Shown here one piece after another: positions 15,531 through 35,762 of a stretch of DNA of 36,477 bases. Source of the DNA: Planctomycetota bacterium (GTDB lineage: Bacteria; Planctomycetota; UBA1135; GCA-002686595); contig DRLC01000068.1 of assembly GCA_011053145.1 (NCBI GenBank), positions 1-36,477 on the forward strand, read 5' to 3'. The notes under the pieces are model-generated. The model saw only the letters and a list, made by a program, of their open reading frames with translations. It searched no databases and was not told the origin of the DNA. The translations under genes were made by a program, and so were the position numbers. Numbering within the stretch: position 1 is the first letter of the stretch; each line of letters begins with the position of its first letter.

Positions 15531-16889
15531 ATGTCCAACTCGGATCTCGTGCAGAAAGAAGTCGACACCTTCATGGCCTCTCTGAAGGAGCGCAACCCGG
15601 GTGAGCCCGAGTTCCACCAGGCGGTCCACGAGGTGACCGAGTCCCTGATGCCGTTCGTGCTCGAGCACGAAAAGTACCGCAAGGCGCGCATCCTCGAGCG
15701 GATGACCGAACCGGACCGGATCCTCACGTTTCGGGTGACCTGGGAGGACGACAACAAGGAGATCCAGGTCAACCGGGGCTGGCGCGTGCAGTTCAACAAC
15801 GCGATCGGTCCCTACAAAGGCGGCTTGCGCTTCCACCCGACCGTGACCCTGAGCGTCCTCAAGTTCCTCGGCTTCGAGCAGGTCTTCAAGAACAGCCTGA
15901 CCACCCTGCCGATGGGGGGTGGAAAGGGTGGCTCGAACTTCGATCCGAAGGGCAAGAGCGACAGCGAGGTGATGCGCTTCTGTCAGGCGCTCATGGTGGA
16001 GCTGTATCGTTACATCGGTTCGGACCGTGATATCCCCGCCGGCGACATCGGAGTCGGTGCGCGTGAGATCGGCTACTTGTTCGGCCAGTACCGGCGGCTC
16101 GAGAACCGCTTCACCGGGACGATCACCGGCAAGGGACTGTCGTTCGGCGGCAGCTTGATCCGCGCCGAAGCGACCGGGTTCGGTGCGGTCTACTTCGCTG
16201 AGAACATGCTCGCGAAACGCGGAGAGGGGCTCGATGGCAAGACCGCGGCGGTATCCGGCTCCGGGAACGTGGCGCTCTACGCGATCCAGAAGCTGGCGGA
16301 GAAGGGCGCGCGCGTCGTGACCGCTTCGGACTCCTCGGGCTTCATCCACGACCCGGAGGGGATCCGAGACGAGAAGTTCGAGTGGCTGCGCGAACTCAAG
16401 GAGCAGCGGCGCGGCCGAATCCGGGAATACGCCGAGAAGTTCGGCTGCGAGTTCGTCGAGGGCCAGCGTCCCTGGGGGGTCCCCTGCGAGCTGGCCTTCC
16501 CCTGCGCGACCCAGAACGAGGTCAACCGCCAGAACGCCGAGGACCTCGTCAAGAACGGCTGCATTGCCGTCACCGAGGGCGCCAACATGCCGAGCGACCT
16601 GGACGCGATCCGCGTGTTCCAGGAGGCGGGCATTCTCTTTGCGCCCGGTAAGGCGGCGAATGCCGGCGGGGTTGCTGTTTCGGGCCTCGAGCAGAGCCAG
16701 AACGCGATGCGCATCTCCTGGACCCGCGAGGAGGTGGATCGCCGCCTGCAGGACATCATGCGCAAGATCCACGACCGCTGCATCGACTTCGGGGCGAACG
16801 GAAGCGATGCGCCGAACTACGTCAAGGGCGCCAACATCGCCGGCTTCATCAAGGTCGCCGACGCGATGCTCGCCTACGGCGCGGTCTGA
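15531..16889 (+). CDS. gdhA: Glutamate dehydrogenase, small hexameric (NADP-type)
   Basis: Interconverts 2-oxoglutarate plus ammonium and glutamate, linking carbon and nitrogen metabolism in the cytoplasm. The 452 residues match the short NADP-type family (E. coli GdhA, 447). Signature elements: PYKGGLRFHP with K96, LPMGGGKGGSNFDPKGKSD with catalytic K132, RDIPAGDIGVGAREIGY, and the dinucleotide loop GSGNVALYAIQKL (about 243-255). FPCATQNEVN and AANAGGVAVSGLEQSQN are also family-typical. The ATG at 15531 has GGAG at the right distance. It is followed after 25 bases by the selenoprotein gene on the same strand, so cotranscription is likely. Confidence 0.95.
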   Translation: MSNSDLVQKEVDTFMASLKERNPGEPEFHQAVHEVTESLMPFVLEHEKYRKARILERMTEPDRILTFRVTWEDDNKEIQVNRGWRVQFNNAIGPYKGGLRFHPTVTLSVLKFLGFEQVFKNSLTTLPMGGGKGGSNFDPKGKSDSEVMRFCQALMVELYRYIGSDRDIPAGDIGVGAREIGYLFGQYRRLENRFTGTITGKGLSFGGSLIRAEATGFGAVYFAENMLAKRGEGLDGKTAAVSGSGNVALYAIQKLAEKGARVVTASDSSGFIHDPEGIRDEKFEWLRELKEQRRGRIREYAEKFGCEFVEGQRPWGVPCELAFPCATQNEVNRQNAEDLVKNGCIAVTEGANMPSDLDAIRVFQEAGILFAPGKAANAGGVAVSGLEQSQNAMRISWTREEVDRRLQDIMRKIHDRCIDFGANGSDAPNYVKGANIAGFIKVADAMLAYGAV

Positions 16890-16914
16890 TTTTCGATCCC
16901 ACGGAGGACCTGGC

Positions 16915-17265
16915 ATGGCCAAGCGAATCGACTGGTACTACCACCGCAAGGGGTGAACGAGCTGCAAGCGTTCCGACGCCTTCCTGGAGGGTCGGGACAT
17001 CACCGTTCGTGAAACGGTGAACGCGACGAAGGAGCGCTTCGGCGCCGACGCGCTCCCCGAGCTCTTCGAGGGGGCGGCGAAGGTCGTCGTCGCCAAGGGC
17101 AAGAAGGCGCTCGTCTTCGACATGCGAAAGAGTTCCGCGGAAGATGCAGACTTCCAGAAGGCCGTTCTCGGCCCTTCGGGGAATCTGAGGGCTCCGGCGG
17201 TCCGGGCCGGGAAGAGCTGGCTCGTGGGTTTCCACGAGGAATCCTGGCTCGATCGGTTCGGCTGA
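16915..17265 (+). CDS. Selenoprotein of ArsC-like thioredoxin fold, UGA (Sec) at residue 14
   Basis: Reading through TGA at 16954-16956 gives one 116-residue protein: MAKRIDWYYHRKG-U-TSCKRSDAFLEG and onward to a normal stop at 17263-17265. The UGA is exactly where the first Cys of a CxxC redox motif belongs (U14-T-S-C17), at the end of the first beta strand as in ArsC, Spx and thioredoxin-fold proteins. A cis-Pro-like NLRAPAV follows near residues 95-101. The initiation site is excellent: GGAGG 8 bases before ATG 16915, which would be pointless for a 13-residue peptide. A bulged hairpin follows the UGA (separate entry). It is probably a thiol/selenol reductase rather than a true arsenate reductase. 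A nonsense mutation or pseudogene is the alternative, less likely because both halves keep family-like sequence. Confidence 0.85.
16970..16998 (+). promoter_or_regulatory. Candidate bacterial SECIS hairpin after the UGA codon
   Basis: Thirteen bases after the UGA, 16970-16977 pairs with 16991-16998 (one G-U pair), G16978 is bulged, and 16979-16981 pairs with 16988-16990, leaving a six-base loop UCCUGG. This gives 11 base pairs with a single bulge three pairs below the loop, the same place as the bulged U in the E. coli fdhF element. The loop starts 25 bases from the UGA. Differences: the bulged base is G and the loop does not begin with the GGU typical of E. coli. The pairing was done by hand. 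Confidence 0.6.
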
Positions 17266-30184: not shown

Positions 30185-33100
30185 TCAGGGCCAGTGGACC
30201 CCCGCGGAGGGGTCTTCCGGCACGATCACGTCCCGGCGAACCCAGTCGGTTCCGTCGAGTCCCTCGATCCGCAGCGTGGAGCCGGCGGGCGCGGCGGGAA
30301 TGCGCTGGGCTCCGCCGGCGTCCCGTTCCGTCGCGAGTTCGATCGGGCGCTCGAGGGGCGTCGAGGCGAGAGAGACCAAGAAGACGCGCAACCGGGGACC
30401 GGAGTCGGGGTGTTCGACCGGGAGCGCGGCACTCGGAAGGGAGACCTGGAGTGGCCCCTGCTCGGGGACGTCCACCTCGAGTGCGAGGGGAAGGGAGCCG
30501 GGCGCTTCGCGCAGCAGGAGTAGAGCGGGTCCGACATGGCGGCGTGCGAGCAGGCGGCCCGCCTCCACGTAGGAGGCTTCGAGTTCGGGCGCGTTCGGGT
30601 CACCGAGTGGGACGAGCGTGGCGGAGGTGAAGGAGGGATCCGGCGCACCGCCGCGGAGGCACTCGATGCTCAGGGCGGGGGGATCGGTCGGCAGCGTCAG
30701 GGTGCGGCTCTCCCCGGGTTCCAGATCCAACGCATAGGTGGAGCCCCGCCAGCGCAGCGAGAACGGGCCCGGTGCGAGATGGGGCAGGATCCGGACGCGC
30801 TCGGCGCCTGCGATGCCGAGGCTGCCGAGCGATCCCGGGACGACGAGCCGTGTCCCAGAGCCCGCGTCGAGCCGTGCCGTTTCGGAGGGGTCGGGGGCGG
30901 CCTTGCCGTCGAGTTCGAGGCGCAGTCGGGCAAAGGGGACGAGGGTCATGCGCAGGGTCCGGCCATCCGGCTCGAGTGGATCGTCCCGGAAGTCGTAGGA
31001 GGCCGCGATCCCGACGCCGAGCCGCTCCGCTTCGACGCGAAGCGGCAACCCGCCCGCGCCCGCCGTGGGGAGCTCGACCCGCCCGTCCGCATCCGTGAGG
31101 TAGCGGAGCGCGGCTTCGCGGCCCTGATTCCGGACGACCAGCGTGACGAGGGCATCCGGCACCGGGACACCCGCCGGATCGACCGCGACCACGGAGAGGA
31201 CCGGCGGCAGAGACGACGTGGAATGTTCGCAAGCTTCGGCGACAGCATCACCAGACGCCTCGAGTTGTACCGAGAGGCCGCTCGCAGGCGCCGCCGCGGA
31301 GACGTTGGCGAGGACGAGGCGACCCTCCAGAGGGCCGTCCGTGGCGATGAGCTGCAGGTCCCCCGGCGGCAATTCGAACTCGAAATGCCCTTCCGGCCCA
31401 GCGTGGACCGATGCGATGCGCTGTCCGGCGCGGAACGCGTGAAGAACCGGATCGTGCGGCGCAGCTTCGCTCGGGGGGACGAGATCTCCGGTGAGTCGGA
31501 CGAGCTCCGGGCCGGTGATCCGCCCCAGGTCGAGGGAGGCGTCGGGGAGCAGTTCGACCTCCAGGGGAGTCCCCGAAGGGCCGGCGAGGATCCGGGCTGG
31601 GCCGCTCCGCGCGCGTTCGAATCGAAAGCGTCCCATCTCGTCGGTGACGGAGATGCGGGCCGGCGTCGCCCCAACCCCAGCGACCGGGGCCTCGATCAGG
31701 GAGACCGTGGCTCCTTCGAGCGCTGACCCGCCGGGATCCACCAGGGTTCCCTCCACGACCGTGGTCGCGGGCGCGCTCAGCACGATGCGGGAGTGCCGGG
31801 TCCGCGGGTCGATGCGCACGGTCCGGCGATCGAAGCGATACCCGTCCGAACCCCCATCCGCGCTCAGTTCGAGGTCGATCGGCACCCCGGCTGGGAGGCC
31901 GGTGAGGGATGCCTGTCCGACGTTGTCGAGGTGCGTCTCACGCGCGAGCGTGTCCCCCGTCCCGAAGATCGCATCCACCCGCGGCCGCGCACGGATCGCG
32001 AGGCCGGGCAGTGGGTTCTCGTCGGCGTCCACGAGGGCCACGTCGAGCGTCCCCTCGGCGAGCATTCCGACCTGCAGCACGGCGCCCTCGGGCAGCTCGA
32101 ACAGCTCCTCGGGGTCGACCCGGCGCGGCAGGTAGTCCGGTCGGGTCAACAGGAGCTCCGTCTGGGCCGTCGCGATCTCACGCGCGGCTTCGGGGAGGCG
32201 GAGCACAAGGCCTCCTCCGTGGCCGCTCTCGCCGAGTCCGAGGCTCTGGGGCACGAGCCGGCCGGAGGGGTCGCGCCCGTGGAACACGACCTCGACCCGC
32301 ACCCCCTCGAGGGCCGCCTCGTTCACGGCATCGAGGACGAGCAGGGAGTTCAAACGCTCGGGACGGTCCGCCATCGGGGTCGAGCGCCCGAGGAAGGCCC
32401 CCGCCTCCCGGCCGGGCCGATCCACGATGGTCAGGGGCCTTCGGTGCCCCCACGGCGTTCGGCCAGCGGCGACCTGGGAGCCGTCGCCGAGGAGCCACCA
32501 GATGCCCCCGAGCGTGACGGCGGTGAGTCCTGCGGCCTGGACGAGGGCGATCGCCCCAGCGGACAGGCCTGCCGTGCCCCCGAGGGTGTGCGATGCGCCG
32601 GTGCCGGCCGCGGCCTCCCCACCGGAGGGCCCGGGAGCGGGCGGGATCGCGCCCTGGGGGTCGTGGGCCATGAGCAGCAGCAGCGCTCCGAGGGGCATGC
32701 CCGCCTCTTCCTCGTCGAATTCCGCCGCGAGCTTTCGGCGCAGGTGGCGCATGGCACGCTGGATCTGGGAGCGCACCGTCGAGGGGGTGATCCCGCGCGC
32801 CCGCGCGACCTCCTCGGTGGAGAGCTCCTCGAAGTAGCGCAGGACGACGGTCGTGCGGTAGGGCTCGTCGAGCTCGAGCACCGCTTCGACGATCTGGCGC
32901 CGCATCGACGCCTTCTGAAGGGCTTCGGCGGGGGAGGGGACCTCGGCCACGCGCCGACTGACACGCTCCTCGCGCTCACGCCGGGCGCTCTCCTGGCGCC
33001 CGCGCTGGAAGACAGCGTTGCGCGCAACGGTCCGCAGCCACTGGCGCATCGCCCGGGGCTCCCGCGGACCCGATTCCAGGGCGCGCACGAAGGTCTCCTG

Positions 33101-33202
33101 GACCGCGTCCTCGGCCCGGTGGGGGTCGCGGACGAGGCTCCGGCACAGGGCGCGGATCCAGCCGGCGTTCTCGAGCAGGGCTTCGGCGTTGGGGGGCGGC
33201 AT
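30185..33202 (-). CDS. ECF sigma factor fused through one TM helix to carboxypeptidase-regulatory-like domains
   Basis: A 1005-residue protein. Residues 10-75 are sigma region 2 (RSLVRDPHRAEDAVQETFVR, MRQWLRTVARNAVF) and 100-160 region 4 (LDEPYRTTVVLRYFEELSTE, ITPSTVRSQIQRAMRHLRRK, a complete helix-turn-helix). After a Gly/Ala/Pro linker, residues 213-238 form a single membrane helix (AGAIALVQAAGLTAVTLGGI). The remaining 765 residues look extracytoplasmic, with several units like carboxypeptidase regulatory or Ig-like sandwiches (VVEGTLVDPGGSALEGATVS, LSVVAVDPAGVPVPDALVTL). So the sigma factor is membrane-tethered to what may be a sensor. No anti-sigma gene adjoins. ATG 33202 has GAGG upstream; the frame stays open far beyond, but that is antisense to glpD. 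Confidence 0.85.
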   Translation of the reverse strand: MPPPNAEALLENAGWIRALCRSLVRDPHRAEDAVQETFVRALESGPREPRAMRQWLRTVARNAVFQRGRQESARREREERVSRRVAEVPSPAEALQKASMRRQIVEAVLELDEPYRTTVVLRYFEELSTEEVARARGITPSTVRSQIQRAMRHLRRKLAAEFDEEEAGMPLGALLLLMAHDPQGAIPPAPGPSGGEAAAGTGASHTLGGTAGLSAGAIALVQAAGLTAVTLGGIWWLLGDGSQVAAGRTPWGHRRPLTIVDRPGREAGAFLGRSTPMADRPERLNSLLVLDAVNEAALEGVRVEVVFHGRDPSGRLVPQSLGLGESGHGGGLVLRLPEAAREIATAQTELLLTRPDYLPRRVDPEELFELPEGAVLQVGMLAEGTLDVALVDADENPLPGLAIRARPRVDAIFGTGDTLARETHLDNVGQASLTGLPAGVPIDLELSADGGSDGYRFDRRTVRIDPRTRHSRIVLSAPATTVVEGTLVDPGGSALEGATVSLIEAPVAGVGATPARISVTDEMGRFRFERARSGPARILAGPSGTPLEVELLPDASLDLGRITGPELVRLTGDLVPPSEAAPHDPVLHAFRAGQRIASVHAGPEGHFEFELPPGDLQLIATDGPLEGRLVLANVSAAAPASGLSVQLEASGDAVAEACEHSTSSLPPVLSVVAVDPAGVPVPDALVTLVVRNQGREAALRYLTDADGRVELPTAGAGGLPLRVEAERLGVGIAASYDFRDDPLEPDGRTLRMTLVPFARLRLELDGKAAPDPSETARLDAGSGTRLVVPGSLGSLGIAGAERVRILPHLAPGPFSLRWRGSTYALDLEPGESRTLTLPTDPPALSIECLRGGAPDPSFTSATLVPLGDPNAPELEASYVEAGRLLARRHVGPALLLLREAPGSLPLALEVDVPEQGPLQVSLPSAALPVEHPDSGPRLRVFLVSLASTPLERPIELATERDAGGAQRIPAAPAGSTLRIEGLDGTDWVRRDVIVPEDPSAGVHWP

Positions 33203-33327
33203 ATCTCCTCGCGTACCAGGACGCAGCCGACGCGTCCGGTGTCCCATCGGACGCCGGAATAGTTCGCGGATGGTGGTGGGGAACAGGAAAAGGCCCCGGC
33301 GAGCGAGGGAATCGGTCCCGGTGCCCC

Positions 33328-34998
33328 TCAGCGGGAGGGGGTCGTGCGCTCCCCACGCCAGGCCTGGCGCGCGTGGAGTTCGGCGCGGGCCTCGGCGAGC
33401 TCGCGGTCGCGGCGTTCGCCGTCCCAGGTCAAGAGGCGCGCCATTTCGTCCGCGATGCGTTCGGCACTGGAGAGGGCGGTCTCCAGGGGTTCGAATCCCG
33501 CGTCGGTCCTTCGGAAGAGGACGTCGCGAAGCCCGAGGGCATCCTCGTGCTCGATCGCCCAGCGCACCTCGCCGAGGCGGGTGGCGGGATCGAGACGCTC
33601 CATGCCCCGCGGGGTGTCGGAAACGAGCCTGCCCACCGCCCCGCGCAGGGACCCATACCGCCGCTCCCAAACCTCGGTGATCCCGTCCTCTTCCAGATCC
33701 CAGCCCGCGGGAAGCCCGGCGGTCGTGAGATGGGACCAGAGGGGGCGGATCGAGCGCTCGCCGAGGGCGCCGACGAGTCGCAGGTCGCGCGTCGGGGAGT
33801 GGCGGGTCCGGTCGCCCCGTCCGAGATCCTGGGCGAGGCGCGCGCCGACCTCCTCCGCCATGGCCCGGTAGGCCGTGAGCTTTCCACCCGCGATCGTGAG
33901 GAAAGGCCCTTCGAGGGCGATGCGTTCCTCCCGCGAGCGGGCCGAGGGGTCGCGTTTGTTCGCCGCCAGCAGCGGGCGCAGCCCGGCCCAGGTCGCGACC
34001 ACATCCGACCGCGTGAGGGCGGCATCGGGGACGAGAGCGTTCGCCGAGTCGAGCAGGTAGCCGACCTCCGCGGCCGTCGCGCGCGGGGGCTGGGCCGGAT
34101 CGGCGTCGATGTCGGTCGTGCCGATCACCGTGTAGCGTGGCCAGGGGATCAGGAACAGCACGCGTCCGTCGACGGCGGAGTGCAAGATCACCGCGCCGTC
34201 CGTCGGGAGGCGCTCGCGCGGCACCGTGATGTGGGAGCCGCGCGTCGGCTGGATCCAGGTCGAGCCTGTGAGCCCGCACATGCCGCGCAGGGCATCGGTT
34301 CCGGGACCCCCTGCGAGGACGATGCGGCGCGCTCGTGCCGAGAACTCGCGTCCCTCGATGCGGTCGATGAGGCGGACCTCGGTCTCCTCCGATCCACGTT
34401 CGACACCGACGGCTTCGGTCCAAGAGAGGGCGACGGCGCCGCGCTGCATCGCAGTGCGCACGACCGCGAGTGTTAGCCGGGCGTCGTCGGTCGCTCCATC
34501 GAGGTAGCTGCCCCCGCCGACGAGTCCTTCTCCGCGCACGCCGGGAATCGCACGGCGCACCGCGGCCGGGTCCAGGGACCGGGGCCATCCGAGAATGCGC
34601 GGGATCGAGACGGCGGTGTAGAGCAGGAGCCCGGCGCGCAGCTTCCATTTCGGGACCGGGCTCGTCTCGTGGATCGGGAAGGTGAAACGCTCGGGCCAGA
34701 CGAGTCCGGCCGCGTTCTCGAGGAGTAGGGCGCGCTCGAGGCACGAGGTGCGCACGAGGTGGAACTCGAACTGTTCGAGGTAGCGGAGGCCCCCGTGGAC
34801 GAGCCGAGACGACGCGCTCGACGTGGCCGACGCCCAGTCCCCCCGTTCGATCAAGGCGACCTCGAGGCCGCGGGCGACGAGATCGAGTGCGATCCCGGCC
34901 CCGGTGATCCCTCCGCCCAGGACCAGTGCGTCGAACGTCTGCTCCTCGAGCTTGGAAAAACGTTCCGTTCGCGGCGGATTGGGTTTGGGCTTCGGCAT
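33328..34998 (-). CDS. glpD: FAD-dependent glycerol-3-phosphate dehydrogenase
   Basis: Oxidises sn-glycerol 3-phosphate to dihydroxyacetone phosphate at the inner membrane, passing electrons to quinone. It has 556 residues, within the usual range (E. coli GlpD, 501), with some C-terminal extension. FAD motif: DALVLGGGITGAGIALDLVA (GGGITG at 28-33). Family signatures: ASATSSASSRLVHGGLRYLE and PTRGSHITVP, then LIPWPRYTVIGTTDIDAD, and FLTIAGGKLTAYRAMAEE. The C-terminal GlpD domain (GSLRGAVGRL, WAIEHEDALGLRDVLFRRT) is complete. A GAGG Shine-Dalgarno lies 5 bases before the ATG. It is followed after 125 bases by the sigma-fusion gene; no glycerol kinase or facilitator is in view. Confidence 0.93.
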   Translation of the reverse strand: MPKPKPNPPRTERFSKLEEQTFDALVLGGGITGAGIALDLVARGLEVALIERGDWASATSSASSRLVHGGLRYLEQFEFHLVRTSCLERALLLENAAGLVWPERFTFPIHETSPVPKWKLRAGLLLYTAVSIPRILGWPRSLDPAAVRRAIPGVRGEGLVGGGSYLDGATDDARLTLAVVRTAMQRGAVALSWTEAVGVERGSEETEVRLIDRIEGREFSARARRIVLAGGPGTDALRGMCGLTGSTWIQPTRGSHITVPRERLPTDGAVILHSAVDGRVLFLIPWPRYTVIGTTDIDADPAQPPRATAAEVGYLLDSANALVPDAALTRSDVVATWAGLRPLLAANKRDPSARSREERIALEGPFLTIAGGKLTAYRAMAEEVGARLAQDLGRGDRTRHSPTRDLRLVGALGERSIRPLWSHLTTAGLPAGWDLEEDGITEVWERRYGSLRGAVGRLVSDTPRGMERLDPATRLGEVRWAIEHEDALGLRDVLFRRTDAGFEPLETALSSAERIADEMARLLTWDGERRDRELAEARAELHARQAWRGERTTPSR

Positions 34999-35105
34999 AT
35001 CGTCCTCGGGCTCGGTTGCATGGTAGGTTTCGGTACGTCCCCTTCCACGGGGGCGGACGAACGCTTCTTGCGAGCGACCTCTCTCCCGACTTCCAGACCA
35101 CCGTC

Positions 35106-35762
35106 ATGCGCTCTCGTATTCCGATCCTTCTCCTCGGCGCCGTACTCAGCTCCTGCTCGGTCGGCCGCTTCCACGCTCGGCAGGAGGTGAACTGGTTCCG
35201 GAGCGGCTTCTATGGGGGTGCGATGGCTGGAGTGGCCAGCACGGGCGACTCCAGCGCCGACTTGGACCGTGCTCTTGCGAAGCGGGGCTACTCCACCGAT
35301 TCGAGCCTCGACGACTCCGATTCCGCCTACAACATCTACGGCGGGTACCGCTTCGAGAGTTCCTTCGCGGTCGAACTCGGCTACGTGAACCTCGGGCAGA
35401 CGAGTTCGACGATCAACGCGACTCCCCCCGACCTGAACCTCTTCCTCGACGATGTGGCCGACGTGCACCCCGTCCTCGGACGCGGATTCCAGCTCTGCGG
35501 CCGTTGGTTCGCCGTCGACCGCGAGCGCGTGAACCTCTCCGTCAGCGCCGGCTTCTGGGTCTGGAACGCGGACATCGACGCCCAGGCCGGCACCGGCGAG
35601 GTCAGCCGCAGCGACCGCAGCGGCATCGATCCGACGATCGGCGTCGCGGCCACTTTGGGCCTCACCGACCGCCTCGACCTCCGCGCGGCCTGGGACCGCT
35701 ACTACCTCGACGGCGATTCCGCCGACGCCTTCTGGCTCGGCGTTCAGTGGGGCGTGCTGTAG
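35106..35762 (+). CDS. Small outer-membrane beta-barrel-like protein with lipoprotein signal
   Basis: A 218-residue exported protein. The signal MRSRIPILLLGAVLSSCSVG ends in a lipobox-like SSC (C17). The mature part alternates polar and hydrophobic residues in strands typical of 8-stranded barrels of the OmpA N-terminal/Opacity type: YNIYGGYRFESSFAVELGYV, RVNLSVSAGFWVWNADIDAQ, IGVAATLGLTDRLDLRAAWD, and an end ...FWLGVQWGVL, although the last residue is Leu and not the classic Phe. A barrel with a lipid anchor is unusual; C17 might instead be part of a Sec signal. The gene is divergent from glpD (107-base gap). No Shine-Dalgarno is seen. Confidence 0.7.
   Translation: MRSRIPILLLGAVLSSCSVGRFHARQEVNWFRSGFYGGAMAGVASTGDSSADLDRALAKRGYSTDSSLDDSDSAYNIYGGYRFESSFAVELGYVNLGQTSSTINATPPDLNLFLDDVADVHPVLGRGFQLCGRWFAVDRERVNLSVSAGFWVWNADIDAQAGTGEVSRSDRSGIDPTIGVAATLGLTDRLDLRAAWDRYYLDGDSADAFWLGVQWGVL

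Follow-up and report, generated by a model that had tools for sequence, protein, structure and literature searches.

A gene in the planctomycete contig analysed here (the window, 36,477 nucleotides) encodes a selenoprotein of the known NF041106 family, with an ArsC/Spx-type thioredoxin fold and a UxxC motif. The whole reading is that of a known-family selenoprotein gene whose UGA at 16954 is decoded as selenocysteine (Sec) through SelB and a stem-loop, and whose product is likely a small oxidoreductase; we put its probability at about 95%. The original prediction, which took this UGA for the Sec codon of an ArsC-like selenoprotein, is borne out by the match to NF041106, the Sec machinery of the genome, the codons found in homologues and a SECIS-like stem-loop. 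Sec insertion at codon 14 is inferred from these comparisons, which themselves show the gene, the conserved UGA/Cys position, the machinery and the RNA structure. The Sec finding is correct and well supported and adds a selenoprotein to a planctomycete genome; the family itself is already catalogued and is common in planctomycetes.

The reading frame opens with ATG at 16915, closes with TGA at 17263-17265 and is broken solely by the TGA at codon 14 (Table 1). With the first TGA translated as U, the product begins MAKRIDWYYHRKGUTSCKRSDAFLEG..., the motif being U14-T-S-C17. The sequence thus confirms a single frame, interrupted only by a TGA where the first Cys of a CxxC motif would stand, before it runs on to a proper stop. 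A strong ribosome-binding site had also been announced, with a spacing of eight bases; the GGAGG is present, and the measured distance is seven. A gene caller without Sec handling would return a 13-residue fragment or a truncated protein. Current NCBI pipelines, the NF041106 family having already been described, possess a model for it.

Table 1. Positions of the selenoprotein gene, its elements and its upstream neighbour in the window.
Feature	Coordinates	Strand	Basis
Selenoprotein gene of the ArsC family (NF041106), 116 residues; coordinates include the stop TGA	16915..17265	+	Recovered in the whole-genome search, the match containing a single TGA
In-frame TGA at codon 14, predicted to encode the selenocysteine of UxxC	16954..16956	+	Aligned codon is TGA in 87/101 distinct loci
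TGC, Cys17, putative resolving residue of UxxC	16963..16965	+	Cys in all 112 TGA-form loci
Shine-Dalgarno-like GGAGG	16903..16907	+	Seven bases 5' of ATG, read directly from the sequence
Predicted bacterial SECIS stem-loop	16970..16998	+	Folding energy, family-wide z, compensatory changes
gdhA, glutamate dehydrogenase, upstream neighbour (context only)	15531..16889	+	ORF and sequence

In profile comparison, the 116-residue protein with Cys substituted for U scored 127.9 bits against the NCBIfam model NF041106 ("ArsC family (seleno)protein"), whose cut-off is 85. The alignment to NF041106.1 covers model positions 1-106 of 107 and spans the TGA. The active site also fits the family, with UxxC here and either Sec (TGA) or Cys as the first residue in relatives. 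Scores for the related families fall short of their thresholds: 16.6 bits versus 159 for SpxA and 15.6 versus 75 for Spx/MgsR in NCBIfam, and 14.4 versus a gathering cut-off of 24 for classical ArsC in Pfam (PF03960). Among proteins of solved structure, profile comparison placed Spx first (E 9e-8 to 1e-5). When the AlphaFold2 model of the protein (mean pLDDT 82, pTM 0.77) was submitted to Foldseek, Spx and ArsC-related proteins were the best folds, with modest TM-scores (0.44-0.50), and the top matches were Spx in complex with either YjbH or the alpha C-terminal domain of RNA polymerase.

The position of Sec as first residue of UxxC, the ArsC/Spx fold and the invariance of the second Cys suggest that the protein is a small selenol-disulfide oxidoreductase. 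Sec14 would attack the oxidised substrate and Cys17 would resolve the resulting selenenyl-sulfide. Taken by itself, such a redox role is probable, judging from the motif and the modelled fold.

Spx uses its own CxxC as a redox switch, and the profile and Foldseek matches to Spx could mean that the protein is a redox-sensing regulator of the Spx kind, which would bind RNA polymerase and use Sec as its sensor residue. The two proteins share the thioredoxin-like ArsC/Spx fold and the position of the CxxC motif (PDB 3l78, 1z3e, 6gho). They differ in that Sec replaces the first Cys here, in scores that lie far under the Spx cut-offs, and in a shorter C-terminus: the protein has 116 residues versus about 131 and ends soon after the last core helix. 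We regard a regulatory function of this kind as unlikely. Extending it to the NF041106 family at large, as a planctomycete Sec-based redox sensor that would exert Spx-like transcription control through contact with RNA polymerase, is likewise unlikely. If true, it would to our knowledge make the family the first transcription regulator of such a kind to contain Sec.

The ArsC-family fold, the family name and the Pfam ArsC match, though below cut-off, might instead denote an enzyme that truly reduces arsenate and serves to detoxify arsenic. In classical ArsC, the arginine just before the conserved proline binds arsenate. An alanine occupies this position here, an arginine in Spx. The best solved relatives are Spx, and none of the clustered neighbours, as far as these were named, was recognised as belonging to an ars operon. 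The UxxS selenoprotein "Arsenate reductase 1" (PMC2398784, PMC1088965) belongs to the same ArsC superfamily and likewise carries Sec at the catalytic cysteine position, but its motif differs from the UxxC found here, which is that of Spx, and the present protein stays below the Pfam ArsC cut-off. Classical arsenate reduction is made less likely by UxxC in place of UxxS and by the alanine before the conserved proline, and we consider it quite improbable. The small oxidoreductase remains the preferred function.

Relatives are numerous. Of 81 genomes from the same family as the source, 58 gave a match, nearly always with exactly one internal TGA. Across the phylum, 80 of 392 genomes pass the NF041106 cut-off; most of these carry one TGA and about ten carry none. 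A scan of named genomes returned at least 560 relatives, and the best 80 of these were nearly all from Planctomycetota where the record names a phylum. In 129 aligned loci, codon 14 is TGA in 112, TGC or TGT in 16 and GAC in one. Removal of duplicates and of one unrelated ArsC left 101 distinct loci, almost all from Planctomycetota: 87 have TGA, 13 have Cys and a single one has Asp. Homologues with Cys or U at residue 14 had been named as support for the original prediction; TGA or Cys is indeed what they have, with the exception of the single Asp paralogue. The latter belongs to a planctomycete (G124; loci L060, G124:C12, and L061, G124:C5) that harbors a UGA copy as well as this paralogue, in which Asp (GAC) takes the place of Sec.

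The TGA column is common to 26 distinct close sequences. Beyond the TGA, codon changes between relatives concentrate at third positions (0.367 versus 0.16 per codon at first and second positions). This bias, along with an NF041106 match that spans the TGA, indicates that the open frame past the TGA does not occur by chance. Relatives compared with the window after the TGA gave pN/pS values of 0.33-0.56, with synonymous sites near saturation. As judged from these alignments, purifying selection acts on both sides of the UGA.

The distribution of the two gene forms was compared with that of selA and selB in 32 genomes picked by gene form (22 TGA-form, 10 Cys-only). Both genes score above cut-off in all 22 TGA-form genomes but in only one of the 10 Cys-only genomes (Fisher P 3.6e-7, uncorrected for kinship; six of the Cys-only genomes belong to one taxonomic family). 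The other Cys-only genomes comprise seven with neither gene, one with selB only and one with selA only. Most Planctomycetota with a family member have retained UGA, and the shift to cysteine is found mostly where the Sec machinery has been lost. Two genomes stand out: G213 (L058) has the Cys form and yet retains selA and selB, and G009 (L062) has the Cys form with selA present and selB not above cut-off. Such genomes may represent steps on the way to losing Sec, or their assemblies may be incomplete.

A Cys codon mutated or misread to TGA, leaving the gene dead or its product free of Sec, would account for a lone TGA standing where 13 relatives have a cysteine codon. Sequencing error, named as a refutation in the original prediction, is excluded because TGA occupies the same codon in 87 distinct loci. 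The fixation of TGA at this codon, the purifying selection beyond it and the way its presence tracks selA/selB leave this explanation, as pseudogene or error, a negligible chance.

The source assembly (4.05 Mb, 400 contigs, 91.5% complete) was searched for the genes of Sec incorporation whose absence would have weighed against the prediction. All are there: tRNA-Sec (73.7 bits; called SeC(tca) by ARAGORN), selB (342 bits) and selA (495.5 bits), all three above cut-off, and a truncated selD. The selD score, 124.5 bits, is just under the cut-off of 125 because the contig ends within the gene (contig C253, minus strand, bases 1-395). The complement expected of a genome with bacterial selenoproteins, tRNA-Sec, SelA, SelB and SelD, is thus found here, with selD incomplete. 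This selD carries an in-frame TGA of its own (...YAACAGUAAK...), at what we take to be the usual SelD Sec site, making it a second selenoprotein gene in the genome.

TGA is the commonest stop in the window. It ends 14 of the 18 ORFs examined, the selenoprotein gene included, and is therefore not reassigned genome-wide. Decoding of codon 14 as something other than Sec, such as Trp, or by leaky readthrough, has nothing beyond the open frame in its favor and can be dismissed in view of this use of TGA as terminator, the Cys rather than Trp that replaces it among relatives, and the presence of tRNA-Sec(tca).

Sec decoding in bacteria calls for a SECIS element just 3' of the UGA. In the proposed mechanism, SelB carrying Sec-tRNA would bind the stem-loop at about 16970-16998 and the UGA would be decoded as selenocysteine; the terminal TGA, assumed to have no SECIS signal, would stop translation. 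The apical loop lies at about 16983-16986, 26-29 bases past the UGA, a distance within the usual bacterial range. In the window gene, folding of 48 bases counted from the UGA yields -18.6 kcal/mol, versus -12.5 +/- 2.5 for synonymous recodings. When this 48-base test was applied across the family, TGA genes and Cys genes were not clearly told apart. Sliding 30-base windows, compared with within-gene synonymous shuffles in 86 TGA genes and 13 Cys genes, revealed a stability peak at +13 to +42 in the former (4.3 kcal/mol; z -1.63 on average, standard error 0.09), no other position attaining a z of -0.7. The Cys genes show no peak at +13 to +42 (z -0.39, standard error 0.27).

Compensatory changes in the stem were counted in 35 close relatives and amounted to 26 cells versus 12.4 in shuffles; none of 500 shuffles reached 26. 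A control slid by +2 nearly equals the consensus SECIS pairing on some measures, the pairing being only moderately better. The window's own minimum-energy pairing was tried as family consensus and proved weak; an alternative inner stem did better. The SECIS element is thus seen mainly as positioned stability, with modest compensatory change. The stem-loop at +13 to +42 behaves as expected of a SECIS, its stability far exceeding that of synonymous shuffles in the TGA genes but not in the Cys genes. An Rfam scan and a tRNA scan of the window gave no match.

ArsC-like selenoproteins were listed by 2006 (PMC1794560). The 2008 selenoproteome of the Global Ocean Sampling described "Arsenate reductase 2" (cd03032), with UxxC and 42 Sec sequences (PMC2398784); a UxxC arsenate-reductase-like selenoprotein also figures in a 2022 review (PMC9312934), and a table in a 2026 review lists "Arsenate reductase-like protein, NF041106, UxxC", citing the 2008 paper (PMC13188914). 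Selenoproteins of planctomycetes in general were reported in 2016 (PMC4807772). The protein described here shares with NF041106/"Arsenate reductase 2" the model, UxxC motif, single Sec, length and fold; nothing but its genome and the gene order around it, with gdhA upstream, sets it apart. Novelty can therefore not be claimed for the family, published in 2008 and present as NF041106 in the 2026 review.

The 25-base gap after gdhA, which ends at 16889, was confirmed, and the two genes are possibly co-transcribed in this genome, which would say nothing about function. The suggestion of coexpression with gdhA did not stand: gdhA adjoins no other family member examined (1.5-5 kb flanks). Since this neighbour is not conserved, its adjacency was discarded as a functional clue and lends no support to a shared function. 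A conserved operon partner was likewise ruled out, neighbours being lineage-specific. Among neighbours named by eye, a pyroglutamyl-peptidase-like gene lies 5' on the same strand in nine loci (L077, L078, L080, L085, L087, L101, L108, L110 and L121), and a dNTP-triphosphohydrolase-like gene adjoins the family member in six.

Elsewhere in the window, positions 30185-35107 of the minus strand hold a 1640-codon open frame, seemingly an ECF-type sigma factor with a long C-terminal extension. At its 5' end this open frame overlaps, in a different frame, a glycerol-3-phosphate-dehydrogenase-like ORF (33328-34998), which probably places the true start around 33.2 kb.
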